A stretch of 64,000 bases of DNA from Flavobacteriaceae bacterium (GTDB lineage: Bacteria > Bacteroidota > Bacteroidia > Flavobacteriales > Flavobacteriaceae), in assembly GCA_022428005.1 (NCBI GenBank), contig JAKMDI010000001.1:1-64000 (forward strand), in the 5' to 3' direction. Shown piece by piece: positions 32,134 through 39,404 of the stretch. The notes under the pieces are model-generated. The model was not told the origin of the DNA. It did no database searches and saw only the letters and a list, made by a program, of their open reading frames with translations. The position numbers and the translations under genes were made by a program. Within the stretch, counting starts at the first letter, position 1. The number at the start of each line of letters is the position of its first letter.

Positions 32134-32421
32134 TTACTTTCTTTTGGAGATTTTGTTGTTGCTGATCCCTCTTTGGCGACTACATTTAAACCGATCTACT
32201 GCTGTAGCAACCTTTTTTAGATGTTTTGTTTTTCTCCCCTGCACACGCGCACGCCACATCTTAAAACTACTCGGTTTCATTTCCCTTCGCATCAGCTTGA
32301 TCACCTCTTTTTCGCTAAGGTCAAATTGTAGGGCTATTGCATCAAAAGGGGTTCGATCCTCCCATGCCATTTCTATGATCCTGTCGATTTGGTCGACACT
32401 AAATTCCTTTTTTTCAATCAT
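32134..32421 (-). CDS. TIGR03643 (DUF2805) family protein
   Basis: 95 residues. [20 protein letters not shown] and [20 protein letters not shown] form a helix-turn-helix-like pair, followed by [18 protein letters not shown], the family core, and a basic tail. Its ATG overlaps the last bases of the photolyase gene (4 bases), and the family is known to occur beside photolyase/cryptochrome genes. It may bind DNA or RNA; function unproven. It is the final gene of the eight-gene light-repair unit. Confidence 0.85.
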
Positions 32422-33905
32422 TGCATTAACTGATTTCGATTGGCCAAGGTATGTTTGGCCAGTATTCGTTTTCCTTCTGTCTTTACCGATCTACTTTTTG
32501 AGAGGGGCCACAAGGTGCTTGTGGCATGTTTTCTTGCAGCTTCCAAATCGACGATGGGTTGTGGATAAGTCTTTCCAGGCTCATAACCATAAACACTGCA
32601 CTCCATTGGTGTGATCTCCCAGGGGGTATGAACCAATTCCTCGGGCAGGTTTTTTAGCTCAGGAATCCACTGCTTTATAAAAGTGCCGTTGGGATCGTGT
32701 TCCTTACTGTTTTTAACAGGGTTGTAGATCCTTAGCATATTGATTCCCGTTACGCCTGCTTGCATTTGTAGCTGGGGATAGTGTATTCCTGCTTCAAAAT
32801 CAAGAAATTGTCTGGCAAGAAAGTGTGCACACGCTTGCCAAGGTTGCCACAGGTGGTGGGTGAAAAATGATACTACAAGGGAACGCATTCTAAAATTTAG
32901 GTAGCCTGTTTCCACCAAACATCGCATTGCAGCGTCAACCAAAGGGACTCCCGTTGTCCCTCTTTCCCAGGCTTCGATGTGTGATTTTCTTATAGGTTGG
33001 TGTAAGGTCTGGTAGCCACTGTTGATATTTTTAAACTCCATCGAACATTCCATTTCGAATTTTTGAATAAAGTGGGACTGCCACCGCAATCGAGAACTAA
33101 AAGCTTTTAGGGAAAAACTTTTGTTTCCTTTTGCCATTTCGTAATTGGTTTTTTGAAGAATTTGACGCATGGAAATATTTCCATAAGCCAAATAGGGGGA
33201 GAGCCGGCTACAACTTCTTCGAGAGAGGTCTGGTTTTGAGATATGTTTTTGATAGTTTCGGAATCTGTCTTTAAAAAATGATTCCATATATCTGTGGGCA
33301 AAGCTTGTCCCTCCACTTTGTCGATTTGGGTGGGTGGGGACATCCAAATCAATGAATTTTAAATGTTTATCAAAACGATTTACGGCTTTGAGTCCGAATA
33401 ATTTACTGCCCTTCAATGGAGTCGCTGCCATGGGTTCTTGCATCAATTGCTCCCATCTTTGTATCCAATCCGATCTGTTTTTTAACCCTCTAAAAACACC
33501 CTGTTGAAGTTTCTCCTCCAATGAGATATACTTATACCGACACCATTTTTTAACCGCTAAATCTCTGACATAAGTGGTGTTGACTCCAGTTTCTTGATGG
33601 GCCCATATTTTTTCAATTTTATATTGGGTACTTATGGTTTCAAACACTTCAATTATGTTTCCTCTTACACTAAGGACTTTACTGTTGTGACTTGCCAGTT
33701 GTGTATTGATGTCCTGCAGCGACTGTTTGATAAAATCAAAGTGGCGTTTGTCATAATGGGGGTCTTCCAAAAGACAGTCTTCCAAAACATAGAGCATCAG
33801 TACACTTTTTTTTGAGTTTAAGGCATGGTGGAGCGGCGGGTGATCCTGCAACCGCAAATCCCTTTTTAACCAAACGATATGGATGGGTTCTCTGCTAGTA
33901 GGCAT
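32418..33905 (-). CDS. Photolyase/cryptochrome family protein, subclass unclear
   Basis: 495 residues. The N-terminal α/β photolyase domain starts [21 protein letters not shown]; the FAD-binding C-terminal half has [43 protein letters not shown] and [16 protein letters not shown]. It is set apart from the other three in this cluster by the MQMQ-like [13 protein letters not shown] segment and does not fit CPD class I or DASH closely. It overlaps the upstream FeS-type photolyase by 11 bases. It binds FAD and either repairs DNA or senses blue light. Confidence 0.85.
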
Positions 33906-35427
33906 CTGGATTTTGAATTATTGACAAAGCCCGTTTTTTTATTTCCGCGCGCTCCATTTCTGGGATCTTATCCAATAAGCGCAGCATCATGGCCATTCGG
34001 TTGTTTTTGGAAAAGTGTTCTTTTTTGTCGTCCAAGAAATTCCAATACAAACTGTTAAACGGACATGCATTTTCCCCTGTTCTTTTGGTTCTATCATAAT
34101 GACACCCAGTACAGTAATTACTCATTTTATGAATGTATGCCCCAGAGGAAACGTATGGTTTTGTTGCAACAATGCCGCCATCTGCCCATTGACTCATTCC
34201 TCGGGTATTGGGCAGTTGAACCCATTCTATGGCGTCAGCATAGATGCCCAAATACCAATTATCTACTTCGTCGGGATGGCATTGTATCAACAGGGCAAAG
34301 TTTCCTGTAATCATCAAGCGTTGTATGTGGTGGGCATAGGCCGTCTCTAAAGAATCAGTTATACTGGATTTTAAACAATTCATTTTGGTAGCTGCTGTCC
34401 AATAGAAATCGGGCAGTTTATTAAAATTGTCCAAATGATTGTTATTCTTGTAAGCAGGCATCTCCTTCCAATAGATTCCTCGCATGTACTCACGCCATCC
34501 CAGAATCTGTCGCACAAATCCCTCTACTTGAGAAATCTCAATTTCATCCGGGTTTTTGTGATAGTGATCGATGACCGTTTCCAATACCTCCAAGGGACGA
34601 AGAATTTTTGAGTTTAGTGCAAATGATATCCTGGAGTGAAATAGGTTTCGCTGTTGGGTGTGCATCGCGTCCTGGTAGTCGCCAAAATGTACCAACAGGT
34701 GCTCACAGAAGTAGTGGAGCTGTGCGATGGCTTCACTGCGACTGGAAGGAAAAAAATATTGTTCAAGGTCAAACCTACCAATGGTTTTGATGTTGGCTTT
34801 GACCACCGCTTCGTGTACGGCTTCAACACCTTCTTTATCCGTGTCGAAAGGAGGGGGTATCGCAGGGGTTTCCTTCCATTTTTTCCGATTGTTTTTATCG
34901 TAATTCCATTGGCCTCCAAGAGGTTTGTCTTGGTACATCAACAGATCATATTTTTTGCGCATATAGCGATAAAAATACTCCATGGTGAGTTGCTTTTTGC
35001 CCTCAAAAAACTTTTCCAACTCATTCCTTTCGGTAAGAAAGTGCTCGGTGTCATAACTGGCTGTAGGAATCCCGATTTGCTCGTAAAACAAATGCAGTTC
35101 CCGATCCAATCGATGCTCATCGGGGAGGAGGTATTCGAATTTCGATATATTTTTCTCTTTGATCAGAATTTTTAAATTCTCTGACAATGTTTTTTTGGAG
35201 GCCTCGGAATTAATGTCGAAATACATTACCTCATGTCCAGCGTTTTTTAGTAGCTGTGAAAAGTGCCTCATCGCAGAGAAAAAAGCTACTATTTTTTGAA
35301 TGTGATGAACCACGTATTGCGCCTCCTGGTGTAACTCAATAAGTACATAAAGGGTATCTTCTTCTTTCTCCTTAAACCAAGAGTGGTTGATATTTAATTG
35401 ATCGCCAAGTACCAGTCTAAGTTTCAT
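33895..35427 (-). CDS. FeS-containing bacterial cryptochrome/(6-4) photolyase (PhrB/CryB type)
   Basis: 510 residues. It begins [12 protein letters not shown], the mark of the deoxyribodipyrimidine photolyase-related (FeS-BCP) group. Four cysteines suited to a 4Fe-4S cluster are present: one in TKMNCLKSS and three in [10 protein letters not shown] and [13 protein letters not shown]-binding segments include [10 protein letters not shown] and [12 protein letters not shown]. The group repairs (6-4) photoproducts or acts as photoreceptor with FAD and a lumazine-type antenna. It shares one base with the DASH gene and overlaps the next gene. Confidence 0.92.
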
Positions 35428-36737
35428 CAGAATAATGTTTTTTGAAGCCAGAGGTTTTGGAATTTACCATTGCTGTCGTAGCGTTCAGCCTGCCATTGAA
35501 CATCAAATTTCCGATCTCTTGGATCATTCCCAACACCGGCAACATACATCCAGTTACCATAATTGCTGTGCACGTCGTAGTCCAACAAAAGCGATTCAAA
35601 ATAGGCTGCTCCAATTCGCCAGTCTACATTTATTTCTTTGGCCAAGTAACTCGCCACGTTTTGTCGCCCGCGATTACTCATCCAACCAGTTTTATTGAGT
35701 TCAACCATGTTGGCATTTACAAAGGGTTCTGTTGAATTTCCTGATGCCCAACTTTTGAAAAGTGCTTCATCTGTACGCCAATGGTAGTCCCGCTCAAGAA
35801 TCCCCCCAATTTTAAAAATTTTGTTACCGTGCTTAAGGGAGATGTACTTAAAATAATCCCGCCATACCAGTTCAAAGAAAAGCCAGTAGGTAGATTGATT
35901 CTTTTTAACTTCTTTTTCGTAACGTTTTATTTCCCAATAAATCATTTTAGGGGAAATACTTCCATTGGCCAACCATGGGGAAAACTTGGAACTATAGTCC
36001 TCTCCCAATAAACCATTGCGGGTGTTTTTGTAATAGGACAATTTTTTTGTCTTCCAAAAATAGTGGTCCAGTCTATCCTTTGCTGCTGTTGTTCCGCCTT
36101 TATTGGGAAAAGCCGATCGATAATCTTTTTCAAAAGAATCCAAACCCAAATCAGCCAATGTGGGAATAACTTGATCAGTATCCACAAGATTCGACAGGGG
36201 CAACGGATTCAATTTTGACTCCAGCGGATTTATTTTTAATTCTTTTTCACATCTTTTTCTAAAAACACCAAAAACCTCGGGGAGGGAGGATAGGGAGTAG
36301 GGGAGCGCATCGGGATGAAAAAGAAATTGTTCGTAGTGTCTTATCCAAACAATTGAAGGATCAATTTTTTCGGCCACGGCATTTTCTTCCTCTATTTCTT
36401 CTTGTGTCCATTCTTGTTGAAGATAGATTTCAATCACCCGATGCTGTTGGATCAATTCGGGAAGACTTTCCCCAGGCGTTTTTAAATCAATGATGAGGGA
36501 AATATTCAATGCCTTTAACTCCCTTTGAAGGGCACTGACGCTCTCGATTAGGAATTGTGCCCTGTAGCGCTCTGTTTTTTTGAAGCCCCACATCAGGGTC
36601 TTGAAGTGATCGGGATTAAAGGTATAGTAGGCAATTACTTGATTTCCGCTTTCGATGGCTTTTTTTAAACCTTGATGGTCTTCGGTTCTCAAGTCATTTC
36701 TAAACCAAACCAAAGATTTTTTTACTGTTGCTGACAT
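35427..36737 (-). CDS. DASH family cryptochrome
   Basis: 436 residues. The N-terminal SLVWFRNDLRTEDHQGL and the long FNPDHFKTLMWGFKKTERYRA-type antenna region (seen in pieces) fit Cry-DASH, as do LVWRDYFKYISLKHG, GWMSNRGRQNVASYL, and the C-terminal NYGNWMYVAGVGNDPR. Cry-DASH proteins bind FAD and a folate antenna and repair CPDs mainly in single-stranded DNA. Its start codon lies within the end of the DUF2256 gene (16-base overlap), so translation is probably coupled. Confidence 0.92.
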   Translation of the reverse strand: MSATVKKSLVWFRNDLRTEDHQGLKKAIESGNQVIAYYTFNPDHFKTLMWGFKKTERYRAQFLIESVSALQRELKALNISLIIDLKTPGESLPELIQQHRVIEIYLQQEWTQEEIEEENAVAEKIDPSIVWIRHYEQFLFHPDALPYSLSSLPEVFGVFRKRCEKELKINPLESKLNPLPLSNLVDTDQVIPTLADLGLDSFEKDYRSAFPNKGGTTAAKDRLDHYFWKTKKLSYYKNTRNGLLGEDYSSKFSPWLANGSISPKMIYWEIKRYEKEVKKNQSTYWLFFELVWRDYFKYISLKHGNKIFKIGGILERDYHWRTDEALFKSWASGNSTEPFVNANMVELNKTGWMSNRGRQNVASYLAKEINVDWRIGAAYFESLLLDYDVHSNYGNWMYVAGVGNDPRDRKFDVQWQAERYDSNGKFQNLWLQKTLF

Positions 36738-36856
36738 TTTTTACTACAATATTTTACATCGTTCCAGTGGCGTTCCCATTTTTTCCTCCACCGGAAGGGA
36801 CGTTGACAACGTACACATATCTTTTCTGGTAGGTGTTCTTTTTTGACTCCCCTCAT
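36722..36856 (-). CDS. DUF2256 family zinc-finger-like microprotein
   Basis: 44 residues, read by me directly from the minus strand between two photolyase genes: it starts MRGVKKEHLPEKICVRCQRP and ends KYCSKKCQQQ. The paired cysteines CVRC and CSKKC with Arg/Trp-rich sequence between (FRWRKKWERHW) fit DUF2256, a tiny family found next to photolyases. It probably binds zinc and nucleic acid. Its ATG overlaps the TGA of the upstream photolyase (ATGA) and its 3' end overlaps the DASH gene start by 16 bases. Such a short gene is easily missed by automatic annotation. Confidence 0.9.
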   Translation of the reverse strand: MRGVKKEHLPEKICVRCQRPFRWRKKWERHWNDVKYCSKKCQQQ

Positions 36857-38157
36857 GCAGTGTTTAGTGCTGTTTTGTATTCTTTCAAGCAGCGCTCTCT
36901 GGCATATTTATGTTCAACGATTGGAGCGGGGTAAGACATCTCATTCAGGTCCTCTACCCACCGATTGATGTACTGGTGTTGTTGGTCAAATTTTTGAATC
37001 TGAGCATGGGGATTAAAGATTCGAAAGTAGGGGGCAGCATCTACGCCACTTCCAGCAGCCCATTGCCAGTTACCAACATTACTGGCCATTTCATAATCAA
37101 AAAGTTTTTCTGCAAAATAAGCCTCTCCCCAACGCCAATCAATAAGCAAGTGTTTGCACAAAAAGCTGGCCACCAACATCCGCACGCGATTGTGCATAAA
37201 ACCCGTTTTGTTGAGTTCCCTCATACCAGCATCTACCAGCGGATAACCGGTTTCTCCCTCACACCATTTTTTGAATTCAGTTTCGTCGTTGCGCCACTGA
37301 ATTCGGTCGTATTGTTTCTTAAAGCTTCGCTCCTTGGTATGGGGAAAATGCCAAAGTATTTGCATAAAAAATTCCCTCCATATCAATTCCTTTAGAAAAG
37401 TAGGATTTTTACTACCCGCACTCTTGGTCACCAAATCCCTGATACTTTGCGTTCCAAACCTCAAGTGAACACCAAGACGGGAGGTGCTGTCGGTGGCAGG
37501 AAAATTTCTGGTAGCCTCGTATTGGTCAATCAATTGATCATCGAATTGATAGGCTTTCGGGACCAAAGAAGCCGGGCTAAAACCCATTTCGGTGGTGGTA
37601 ATTTCTGGAAGTTTTTTTTCGTGGTATAAATTGTCCAGTAGCGACTCTGACGGGTAGTTTTCTATTCCTTCCTCCTCAAATTTAGCGATCCATTTTCTCG
37701 AGTAAGGCGTGTAAACTACATAGGGTTTACCATCGTCTTTAACGACTTCATTTTGCTCGAAAATCACCTGGTCTTTAAAGGTGATAAATTCAACTCCAGC
37801 GGACTCTAATAATTTTTTAACCTCAAGATCTCTGGCTAATGCATAGGGCTCGTAATCGTGGTTGGTGTAGACCTTTTCAATCGGGTAGTCCTTGATCAGT
37901 TGATTGAAAATAGCCTTGGGAGTGCCCCTAAAAGTTCCCAGCGCGCATCTGTTCCTCTTCATAACTTTATTGATGCCACCCAAGGCATTTTCAATGAATG
38001 TTAATCTGTGATCATTCTTTTTTAACTTATTGGTGATTTCCGTATCGTAAATAAAGATTGGAATCACGTTATTTTTGTCTTTTAGCGCTTCATAGAGTCC
38101 TCTATTATCATGGGTTCTCAGATCTCTTCGAAACCAAAAAACATTTATTTTTTTCAA
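36853..38157 (-). CDS. Class I CPD photolyase (deoxyribodipyrimidine photo-lyase)
   Basis: 434 residues. INVFWFRRDLRTHDNRGLYEAL begins the antenna-binding domain (quoted in part: FWFRRDLRTHDN). The FAD/DNA-binding half has TSRLGVHLRFGTQSIR, ELIWREFFMQILWHFP, GYPLVDAGMRELNKTG, MHNRVRMLVASFL and NVGNWQWAAGSGVDAAPYFR, all class I signatures including the Asn/Asp facing FAD N5. It repairs cyclobutane dimers with blue light. It lies 5 bases after the SDR gene and ends in an ATGA overlap with DUF2256. Confidence 0.93.
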   Translation of the reverse strand: MKKINVFWFRRDLRTHDNRGLYEALKDKNNVIPIFIYDTEITNKLKKNDHRLTFIENALGGINKVMKRNRCALGTFRGTPKAIFNQLIKDYPIEKVYTNHDYEPYALARDLEVKKLLESAGVEFITFKDQVIFEQNEVVKDDGKPYVVYTPYSRKWIAKFEEEGIENYPSESLLDNLYHEKKLPEITTTEMGFSPASLVPKAYQFDDQLIDQYEATRNFPATDSTSRLGVHLRFGTQSIRDLVTKSAGSKNPTFLKELIWREFFMQILWHFPHTKERSFKKQYDRIQWRNDETEFKKWCEGETGYPLVDAGMRELNKTGFMHNRVRMLVASFLCKHLLIDWRWGEAYFAEKLFDYEMASNVGNWQWAAGSGVDAAPYFRIFNPHAQIQKFDQQHQYINRWVEDLNEMSYPAPIVEHKYARERCLKEYKTALNTA

Positions 38158-38162
38158 GGCAC

Positions 38163-38861
38163 TTAACTTTTTATACTTCCAATTCCTCCATCGACAGTGA
38201 GGGTCTGTGCAGTCATCCAGCTGCTGTGGTCACTCAATAAAAATTTTGTCAGCGCTGCAATCTCAGTGGCATTCCCCACCCGTTGTAATGGATGCCGACC
38301 TGCGGCATTGCTTTTCTTGGCGTCGTTGTTTAAAAACTTAGCTGCCAATGGGGTATCTACTAACGAAGGTGCGATAACGTTAAACCTGATCTTGGGAGCA
38401 AATTCTGCTGCCAGTGATCTGGAAAGCCCTTCCAAAGCACCTTTTGCTGCAGCCACTGAGGCGTGAAAAGGCATGCCTGTCTGAACGGCTACGGTGCTGT
38501 AAAAAACAATACTGCTCATGGTTTCTCCGTTTTGTAATTGGGGTAACAAGGACTGAATGGTCTTGATTGCCCCCATTACATTGATGGAAAAGTCTTGTTC
38601 AAAAACCTCGGGTTTTAGCCCTTTAAAAGGCCTGAGGTTAATCGTACCTGGACAGTACACCAAACCATTGATGGCATCAGGCAAAAGGCTTGTATCCAAT
38701 GCATCGGTCTCTACATCGTAGGGGATGTGGGTTACCGAGAGGCCACTCAAACTATCGTTTGATCGGGAAGCGACGAACACTTGGTTATCTTCACTGAGGT
38801 CCTTGGCCAATGCCAGACCTATCCCTGAACTTCCACCTACGATTAATGTATTTTTTTTCAT
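38163..38861 (-). CDS. Short-chain dehydrogenase/reductase (SDR)
   Basis: 232 residues, classical SDR Rossmann fold: VGGSSGIGLALAKDL (nucleotide binding), the NAG-like position replaced in YCPGTIN, Ser and Tyr of the catalytic site are shifted: FYSTVAV is followed by HASVAAAKGALEGLSRSLA, where the usual YxxxK tyrosine appears as His/Ser and only the Lys (AAAKG) is clear. It ends with the LTVDGG segment. The substrate is unknown. SDRs of this kind recur in photolyase operons. It lies 4 bases after the SRPBCC gene. Confidence 0.88.
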   Translation of the reverse strand: MKKNTLIVGGSSGIGLALAKDLSEDNQVFVASRSNDSLSGLSVTHIPYDVETDALDTSLLPDAINGLVYCPGTINLRPFKGLKPEVFEQDFSINVMGAIKTIQSLLPQLQNGETMSSIVFYSTVAVQTGMPFHASVAAAKGALEGLSRSLAAEFAPKIRFNVIAPSLVDTPLAAKFLNNDAKKSNAAGRHPLQRVGNATEIAALTKFLLSDHSSWMTAQTLTVDGGIGSIKS

Positions 38862-38865
38862 GTCT

Positions 38866-39333
38866 TTAACTTTTATAAGTTCCGAACAGCTCCTCTAATT
38901 TCATTGTTCTGTAATCGAATATTTCTTTGAGTTTGGGTTTTACGATGATGGGGTGAACCATTTGTCCTAAGATGCCAAAGGGAATTTTATAATCAACGAT
39001 ATCCTCCATCTCAACGCCATTTTTTACCGGTCGAATAAAATGCTTGTGATGCCACAATGCATAGGGACCAAAACGTTGTTCATCTACAAAATATTCTTCC
39101 TCCTTAACGTGGGTTATTTCTGTTACCCACTGAGTTGGAATTCCCATAACAGGCGTCACAATATATTTGATGATCTGACCAGGATACATTTTCCTGTCAT
39201 CACCTCCCAAAATCTCAAAACCCATATAGTCCGGGGTGATGGTTTTTAAATTTTTGGGGTCACAAAGAAATTCCCAAGCTTTTTTGATGGTTATGGGCAG
39301 TTGTTGCGTTTTGTGTAAGCGATATATTCTCAT
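38866..39333 (-). CDS. SRPBCC family protein, first gene of the photolyase operon
   Basis: About 155 residues of the START/Bet v 1-like (SRPBCC) fold: IYRLHKTQQLPITIKKAWEF at the start, CDPKNLKTITPDYMGFEIL, and a C-terminal RTMKLEELFG helix. Relatives are annotated as ligand-binding or cell division inhibitor-like proteins and recur beside photolyase and SDR genes. I chose ATG 39333 over the TTG at 39339. It is probably a lipid/isoprenoid-binding protein, but this is inferred only from fold. Confidence 0.85.
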   Translation of the reverse strand: MRIYRLHKTQQLPITIKKAWEFLCDPKNLKTITPDYMGFEILGGDDRKMYPGQIIKYIVTPVMGIPTQWVTEITHVKEEEYFVDEQRFGPYALWHHKHFIRPVKNGVEMEDIVDYKIPFGILGQMVHPIIVKPKLKEIFDYRTMKLEELFGTYKS

Positions 39334-39347
39334 GATCAATATTAATT

Positions 39348-39404
39348 CAAAGATACAATATGTTTAATGATTTTGAATAAATAATAAACAAAATATAAAC
39401 ACTT
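39348..39404 (-). promoter_or_regulatory. Promoter and 11-bp repeat operator of the photolyase operon
   Basis: On the minus strand TATCTTTG (39355-39348) is a perfect TAnnTTTG -7 box, giving a start site only about 10 bases before ATG 39333. Upstream, over the expected -33 region, the plus strand carries TAAACA at 39385-39390 and again at 39396-39401, exactly 11 bp apart, preceded one period earlier by the weaker TGAATA (39374-39379). Three 11-bp direct repeats with a TnnACA core over the -35 region describe the operators of B12-dependent CarH/LitR repressors as I know them. The match is suggestive only in AT-rich DNA. Confidence 0.4.

Follow-up and report, generated by a model that had tools for sequence, protein, structure and literature searches.

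A conserved photolyase gene block in Flavobacteriaceae with a candidate light-switch repeat and a fourth, apparently remodelled photolyase-like protein

The DNA considered here, positions 1 to 64,000 of contig JAKMDI010000001.1 from a Flavobacteriaceae bacterium (assembly GCA_022428005.1; this whole 64-kb stretch is referred to as the window), holds on its minus strand a block of eight open reading frames (ORFs) between positions 32134 and 39333, four of which encode photolyase/cryptochrome family proteins (CPFs). The locus is a real and conserved light-repair block of a known kind, and its new, testable points are an operator-like repeat, a remodelled subfamily of photolyase-like proteins represented by the fourth CPF (protein and subfamily are both named PHR4 here), and two small partner proteins. 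A sequence-only reading of the locus had described it as an eight-gene photoreactivation operon, and all eight ORFs were confirmed at the position and on the strand claimed, together with the four distinct CPF lineages.

In the direction of transcription, the block begins with an SRPBCC-like protein of the Polyketide_cyc type (38866-39333, 155 aa), followed by an SDR oxidoreductase (38163-38861, 232 aa), a photolyase of the cyclobutane pyrimidine dimer (CPD) type with a TTG start (36853-38157, 434 aa), the small Cys4 protein DUF2256 (CxxC...CxxxC; 36722-36856, 44 aa), Cry-DASH (35427-36737, 436 aa), FeS-BCP, an FeS-type bacterial cryptochrome/(6-4) photolyase (33895-35427, 510 aa), PHR4 (32418-33905, 495 aa), and the small basic protein DUF2805/TIGR03643 (32134-32421, 95 aa), all on the minus strand. 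Gaps of 4 and 5 bases separate SRPBCC from SDR and SDR from CPD photolyase, and the other junctions overlap: CPD/DUF2256 by 4 bases, DUF2256/DASH by 16, DASH/FeS-BCP by 1, FeS-BCP/PHR4 by 11, and PHR4/DUF2805 by 4. The tight packing described earlier, with gaps of at most 5 bases, therefore stands, with five overlaps by coordinates in place of the six counted then. Predicted sigma-70 promoters (17) and terminators (9) were about as frequent as in shuffled sequences (16.5 and 8.6). That the eight genes form one transcript is, as part of the whole light-regulon model presented below, somewhat probable.

The assignments of SDR (PF13561, 132.6 bits), DUF2256 (PF10013, 71.9 bits against a cut-off of 25), Cry-DASH (TIGR02765, 488.8 against 317.05; PDB 1np7, 3e-117), the FeS-type protein (PF04244, 248 against 22.1), and TIGR03643 (120.3 against 66.55; PF10985, 126.4 bits) hold. 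The closest solved relatives of the FeS-type protein, 7ykn and 8a1h, are named FeS-BCP 6-4 photolyase (E 1e-155). Its sequence has NCL, YCTGC, and ACPF stretches, which may include the four Cys ligands of a 4Fe-4S cluster. The label "class I" for the CPD-type photolyase is not settled. This protein matches PF03441 (248.8 bits) and PF00875; its best solved relative is the class III chain 4u63 (8e-80), level with the class I chain 1owl (2e-78), and it scores below the cut-offs of the class I models TIGR03556 (340.1 of 884.6 bits) and PRK10674 (319.3 of 506). The SRPBCC protein of the window falls below every Pfam cut-off (best 17.6 bits of 23.4); 16 of 20 members of its family match Polyketide_cyc at E <= 0.1 (best 0.00038), and a WHHKHF stretch is invariant in the family alignment.

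Clustering of photolyase genes in Flavobacteriia is already published. As excerpted, PMC5932025 reports photolyase and related genes close together in marine Flavobacteriia, tracking light-exposed life, and PMC2668756 (also in excerpt) had pointed to a distinct clade of photolyase-like proteins in 2009. The clustering in these proteorhodopsin-bearing marine Flavobacteriia is alike, but the operator, the regulator, the link to DUF2256 and DUF2805, and the residues of the fourth type are not named in the parts of the two papers available. An operon of Synechococcus PCC 7335 likewise has photolyase genes with a short overlap (PMC9649867, in excerpt). That operon comprises two photolyases, of which the second belongs to the PhrSph98 type, and it is co-transcribed and induced by UV-B; the four photolyases here are of other types and stand with four further genes in a predicted common transcript.

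The gene families were counted genome by genome in 119 genomes from the window's order. Matches to PF03441 were assigned to CPF classes manually, using score bands and frame lengths, and the counts omit 11 rows at 30.7-41.2 bits, any weaker rows outside the listing, and one PF04244 row below its cut-off; the Fisher p-values given below for these genomes ignore shared descent. CPD photolyase was found in 66 genomes, DUF2805 in 48, DUF2256 in 45, FeS-BCP in 41, PHR4 in 28, and DASH in 24. The "complete" light-repair and sensing set proposed earlier is not supported as worded: the set is not fixed, as the counts for DASH and PHR4 show, its genes are often split over several loci, and sensing by any of the four CPFs is conjectural. 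DASH and a short photolyase-like protein (~360-380 residues, 21 genomes) never occur together, so that one seems to replace the other. These short proteins, such as L082:6947-8074 and L122:3374-4492 (loci and genomes are cited by our own L and G labels), start with the FAD domain, followed by about 150 conserved residues, and are probably of the SPL type. There is a slight suggestion that a displaced antenna domain may make up their C-terminal part. A circular permutation is not claimed, as a comparison of the last 150 residues with the CPD antenna domain gave an hhalign probability of 5% (E 0.008).

A scan of named genomes with a PHR4 alignment gave at least 591 confirmed relatives among at least 594 matched stretches, and the best 80 were kept. 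These 80 named loci are the ones nearest to the window's PHR4, and their shares are not those of all relatives; from their titles we take them all to be Bacteroidota, except L155 (uncultured bacterium). All four CPFs occur in 18 of the 80 loci, and all eight families in 17, within ~13 kb. The exact eight-gene order of the window recurs in four (L125, L126, L144, and L148), with junctions of -97 to +6 bases by longest-ORF starts, which argues that the arrangement is not due to chance. Clustering, whose conservation in relatives the sequence-only reading had made the test of its own claim, is thus conserved. In Polaribacter, Winogradskyella, Algibacter, and Hyunsoonleella, a longer cluster also includes genes for an ABC1 kinase, a flavin reductase, GTP cyclohydrolase I, and glutathione peroxidase, and two or three of these clusters read in detail contain SDR-DUF2867 and TspO genes as well. 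Genes for GTP cyclohydrolase I and/or 6-pyruvoyl tetrahydropterin synthase were also seen in the light clusters L152, L223, L224, L226, and L229, hinting at a supply of pterin or folate antenna. Polaribacter-like loci encode a ~142-residue protein between PHR4 and DUF2805 (L139:7601-8029 and 15 further loci; the one tested had no Pfam or NCBIfam match), and in 13 of them the repeat described next lies just upstream of it.

The candidate operator of the window is an inverted repeat, GTTTAW-N16-TTAAAC, located 28 bases upstream of the first start codon (39362-39389), with one arm mismatch to GTTTAA-N16-TTAAAC. It is the only site in the window with at most one arm mismatch, and it is found at the same place in five of the six relatives compared (L125, L126, L144, L148, and L154). 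Loci L064-L203 contain 53 repeat matches with spacers of 12-18, against 4.9 in mononucleotide shuffles. When spacers from 6 to 26 were scanned in the 80 named loci, 37 exact sites were obtained at 16 and no more than 3 at any other length; 35 of these 37 sites are within 160 bp of the start of a photo-gene. The reversed pattern gave 8 sites at spacer 16, seven of them inside the conserved CPD photolyase gene. This conservation predicts an operator-like element, a candidate light-switch site. A possible -7 element, TATCTTTG (39348-39355, minus strand), fits the sequence TAnnTTTG, which we take to be the Bacteroidota -7 consensus; with 76 copies over the two strands of the window, this pattern is weak alone. 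No operator of the GTTTAA-N16-TTAAAC kind was found in the literature searched.

In the 119 genomes, the strict motif is present at 53 places in 27 genomes. Two results weigh against a regulatory role in the organism itself: its own genome is without the strict motif in this count, and the relaxed pattern is not enriched there, with six places compared with five when the pattern is reversed. The six places are the operon, a TetR-ABC1 gene pair, a divergent Rieske/TonB-receptor pair, the region upstream of a gene identified by eye as SusC-like, and two sites inside ORFs. An exact copy of GTTTAA-N16-TTAAAC was noted between the divergent genes for the Rieske protein and the TonB receptor (L213:5552-8497, C19 of the same genome), and these two genes are possible further members of the regulon. 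A receptor-like gene, named by eye, is also present in the photo cluster of L152.

Two regulators are associated with the motif, a MerR protein with a B12-binding domain (62 of the 119 genomes, E <= 0.001) and a TetR_C_23 protein (29 genomes), which are present in 26 and 20 of the 27 motif genomes, respectively. The repeat might be read by the TetR_C_23 regulator, whose gene lies beside that of an ABC1/AarF kinase, and the inducer would then be a photo-oxidation product or another ligand and not light itself. The motif association is stronger for TetR (p 2e-10) than for MerR (3e-8), the TetR gene comes immediately after the motif in L212, from the window's own genome, and in L116, L118, L121, L138, L146, L151, and L234, and it heads the longer cluster in 6 of the 80 named loci. 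Nevertheless, the dissociations between the two regulators favour MerR as the putative reader, because all four genomes with TetR and without MerR are devoid of the motif, while six motif genomes hold MerR without TetR. Moreover, in G030, G003, G014, and G026, which have no TetR, the motif is still situated between MerR and crtB. We therefore regard the TetR explanation as rather improbable.

With regard to MerR, 12 of the 53 strict-motif places, in 11 of the 27 motif genomes, are within 700 bases of its gene. These 11 loci (L219-L229) were selected deliberately, and in each of them the motif separates MerR from a gene of ~490 residues that is followed by crtB; in L219 the ~490-residue product is a phytoene desaturase. 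The MerR gene of the window's own genome (G000:C2) adjoins phytoene synthase. Its product matches PF13411 (50.1 bits, cut-off 21.6) and PF02607 (B12-binding_2; 41.4, cut-off 23), and its top NCBIfam match is CarH. It carries the stretch DEIHELG, with no PF02310 match at E <= 0.01; the lower-axial His motif of CarH/LitR is, as we assume, of the DxHxxG type. On this basis, a CarH/LitR-like MerR would control the operon by light through the repeat. Several observations count against such control. The own MerR reaches 50.9 bits, against a CarH equivalog cut-off of 400; the gap between it and crtB is without a clear site, and the sequence upstream of MerR offers only a degenerate one. In addition, 36 of the 62 MerR genomes are without the strict motif, as are, for the exact motif, two fetched MerR-crtB loci (L233 and L238). 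Finally, copies of the motif also precede the TetR gene, which is associated with it as well (20 of 27), and TetR is therefore a second candidate reader.

The CarH/LitR-crt system is the light-dependent carotenoid switch of Myxococcus and Thermus. The 11 fetched relatives resemble it in having a MerR-B12 gene by phytoene synthase with the repeat between them; they differ in that the own MerR does not come near the CarH equivalog cut-off, photolyase blocks share the repeat, and B12 dependence is a prediction. A second likeness is to the LitR-type regulons of Pseudomonas (PplR/PmlR, class II LitR), which in the excerpt of PMC9758184 have a MerR-type repressor with a B12-binding domain. That of Pseudomonas putida comprises phrB, cryB, and folE behind a site of the TGTACA-N12-TGTA(C/T)A type, and the pmlR1 region of Pseudomonas mendocina holds an SDR gene (PMC9758184). 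Photolyase, FeS-type CryB, and folE thus belong there to one light-induced set with an SDR nearby, but the repeat, TGTACA-N12-TGTACA, differs from GTTTAA-N16-TTAAAC, and the present locus has four CPFs in one block, with PHR4, DASH, and DUF2805, and its light induction is a prediction. Light regulation of a cryptochrome and a photolyase in Dokdonia MED134 is cited in the excerpt of PMC9040609.

The fourth photolyase-like protein, PHR4, belongs to the photolyase/cryptochrome superfamily, as it carries PF00875 and PF03441 (215.9 bits) and has a predicted photolyase fold (AlphaFold AF2 model, pLDDT 94.1). It is below every NCBIfam class cut-off: 167.6 of 317.05 bits for DASH, 156.6 of 603.85 for plant CRY, 153.9 of 506 for PRK10674, 144.1 of 884.6 for 8-HDF, and 45.2 of 550.05 for phr2; its homologue from Salinivibrio behaves likewise. 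The two-domain fold and the FAD domain are shared with the known CPF classes (CPD I/II/III, DASH, plant CRY, animal CRY/(6-4), FeS-BCP, SPL, and bifunctional), several of which the model matches alike (TM 0.69-0.85, with 18-24% identity to solved chains among the 50 rows listed). PHR4 departs from them at the flavin site. Residues were compared in an alignment of 104 PHR4 sequences (chosen as best matches to that of the window), 34 CPD, 48 DASH, 13 short, and 5 reference rows, the last without plant CRY or class II. Using Escherichia coli numbering, and taking N378 to face flavin N5 and W382 and W384 to belong to the Trp triad, all 104 PHR4 sequences have His in place of N378, where each row of the remaining groups has Asn, Trp at W382 is found in none of the 104 and in every other row, and the W384 position is Met in all 104. 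The CPD photolyase of the window has N, W, and W at these positions. Plasmid homologues from Vibrio, Salinivibrio, and Pseudoalteromonas have His, Phe, and Met. PHR4 is found in Bacteroidota and on plasmids of Pseudomonadota, and 23 sampled sequences plus three plasmid homologues form one clade with full support (100/100) on a long branch. Judged by sequence, PHR4 is a separate photolyase/cryptochrome subfamily with a putatively remodelled flavin site, in which self-photoreduction by the usual chain is unlikely because the flavin-proximal Trp is missing.

PHR4 might instead be an ordinary repair enzyme, a non-FeS (6-4) photolyase of Bacteroidota, whose odd residues alter its photochemistry little. 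Its fold is the two-domain photolyase fold, its top phmmer matches and its nearest reference in the tree (95/89) are Drosophila (6-4) photolyase, and the Trp triad is known to be dispensable for repair in some photolyases. PhrAHym from Hymenobacter is such a non-FeS (6-4) photolyase, with which PHR4 may be identical. However, the junction with the Drosophila sequence carries a long-branch warning, FeS-BCP is already present in 26 of the 28 PHR4 genomes, and the invariant His replaces an Asn that is kept in all five reference rows. This explanation has a real chance of being correct, although we do not expect it to be. A more far-reaching proposal, tentative and on the doubtful side, is that PHR4 would be a new CPF class with its own flavin chemistry (an invariant His facing flavin N5 and an electron wire broken beside the flavin), which would work with flavin reductase, DUF2256, and DUF2805. 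Its target would then be a photolesion of DNA or RNA beyond the other three enzymes, or else it would be the light sensor of the set. A flavin reductase gene directly precedes PHR4 in 9 of the 80 named loci and adjoins it on a Vibrio pelagius plasmid. Speaking against a dedicated partnership, those 9 loci are few, and an orthologue (a row of at least 88 bits, found in 45 genomes) accompanies PHR4 in 24 of its 28 genomes and FeS-BCP in 32 of 41, so that the reductase may serve the whole CPF set. The window's genome has one flavin reductase, located away from the operon.

The possibility that PHR4 is a bifunctional photolyase of the PhrSph98 type was rejected, since such enzymes are described as sisters of class II (PMC9649867, in excerpt) and PHR4 matches class II-type chains only weakly. 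None of the ten CPF clades named in that paper is described, in the part available, with PHR4-like features. A literature search found no CPF with His at the flavin-N5 position, which is no proof of absence, and one on CPF subfamilies turned up only papers on other subjects. On a Deinococcus plasmid (L240:5001-7265), a PHR4-like match overlaps a gene annotated as uracil-DNA glycosylase, either a fusion or a misannotation.

Of the two small proteins, DUF2256 shows the same four Cys in all 24 sequences compared, and its core is basic and rich in Trp. It is placed in the TRASH clan of metal-binding domains by PMC4047054 (in excerpt) and, judging from its residues, looks like a Cys4 zinc ribbon. 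The AF2 model of DUF2805 shows helices in residues 9-60 (pLDDT about 85-92) and a tail below 60; Foldseek gave weak helix-turn-helix-like matches (best E 0.7), which weakly suggest a helix-turn-helix core. Searches of PDB sequences with DUF2805 and SRPBCC profiles returned nothing usable, and the literature searched contained no photolyase-linked function for DUF2256 or DUF2805. Both may be nucleic-acid-binding helpers.

Both proteins are strongly linked to the photolyases at the genome level. DUF2256 occurs together with FeS-BCP in 40 genomes (32 within 10 kb; Fisher p 6e-25) and with DUF2805 in 41 (12 within 10 kb; 5e-20), and all 24 DASH genomes contain DUF2256 (23 within 10 kb; 4e-13) and DUF2805 (4e-12). 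Plasmid copies of DUF2256 were sampled at one per genus (12 copies from 133 records, with 3 kb on each side except for L254). In six of these 12 genera, FeS-BCP or DASH lies within 100 bases, one of them with PHR4 within 700 as well; in the other six, no CPF match was found in the stretch taken. Scans with PHR4 or TIGR03643 brought further cases, namely PHR4-DUF2256 pairs in Salinivibrio and Tritonibacter and an Acinetobacter plasmid (L244). On this plasmid, DUF2805, DUF2256, and FeS-BCP are side by side, and therefore the three can move together. These adjacencies in other phyla and the co-occurrence p-values oppose the idea that the operon is just a convenience cluster of UV genes, in which DUF2256 and DUF2805 ride along or serve some general function unconnected with it. 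What speaks for that idea, besides the six sampled plasmid genes without a CPF match, is a DUF2805 gene on a Nostoc plasmid with no annotated photolyase within 6 kb, a DUF2805 frame with a stop in G045, a genome without any other listed member, and a metagenome correlation study that tied DUF2805 to translation-related domains (PMC3597751, in excerpt). We consider it quite improbable. The sequence-only reading had also suggested that the four non-photolyase proteins act together; such joint action is conjectural, as the plasmid DUF2256 genes beside FeS-BCP or DASH in L244, L247, L249, and L253 have no SDR or SRPBCC match alongside and half of the sampled copies have no CPF match in the stretch taken. 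A diverged copy of DUF2805 (75-84 bits) was seen in G002, G018, G048, G056, G064, and G114, as the sole copy in G002 and G018 and as a second one in the others.

Taken as a whole, the operon is, with somewhat better than even confidence, a single transcription unit within a Flavobacteriaceae photoprotection regulon that light would induce and a CarH/LitR-like MerR would repress in the dark. Conservation, co-occurrence, the repeat, and the residues are observed and the fold is predicted; from them we infer co-transcription, light induction, the regulator, and all molecular activities. In the dark, the MerR repressor with its B12-binding domain would sit on GTTTAW-N16-TTAAAC just upstream of the promoter, and light would release it. 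Class I/III photolyases mend cyclobutane dimers in duplex DNA, Cry-DASH mends them in single-stranded DNA, and FeS-BCP mends (6-4) lesions, the roles that their counterparts would play here. PHR4 would probably depend on reductants of the cell, for which the flavin reductase that several relatives encode next to it is a plausible supplier. DUF2256 and DUF2805 are probably nucleic-acid-binding accessory factors that would load or guide FeS-BCP, DASH, and PHR4, while SDR and SRPBCC probably handle a small molecule or pigment damaged by light or oxidation. If this model is true, DUF2256, DUF2805, and PHR4 would become testable parts of one light-repair system, the flavin site of PHR4 would offer a direct test of the need for the conserved Asn and the Trp wire, and Flavobacteriia would gain a concrete candidate light-switch site joining pigment making and DNA repair.

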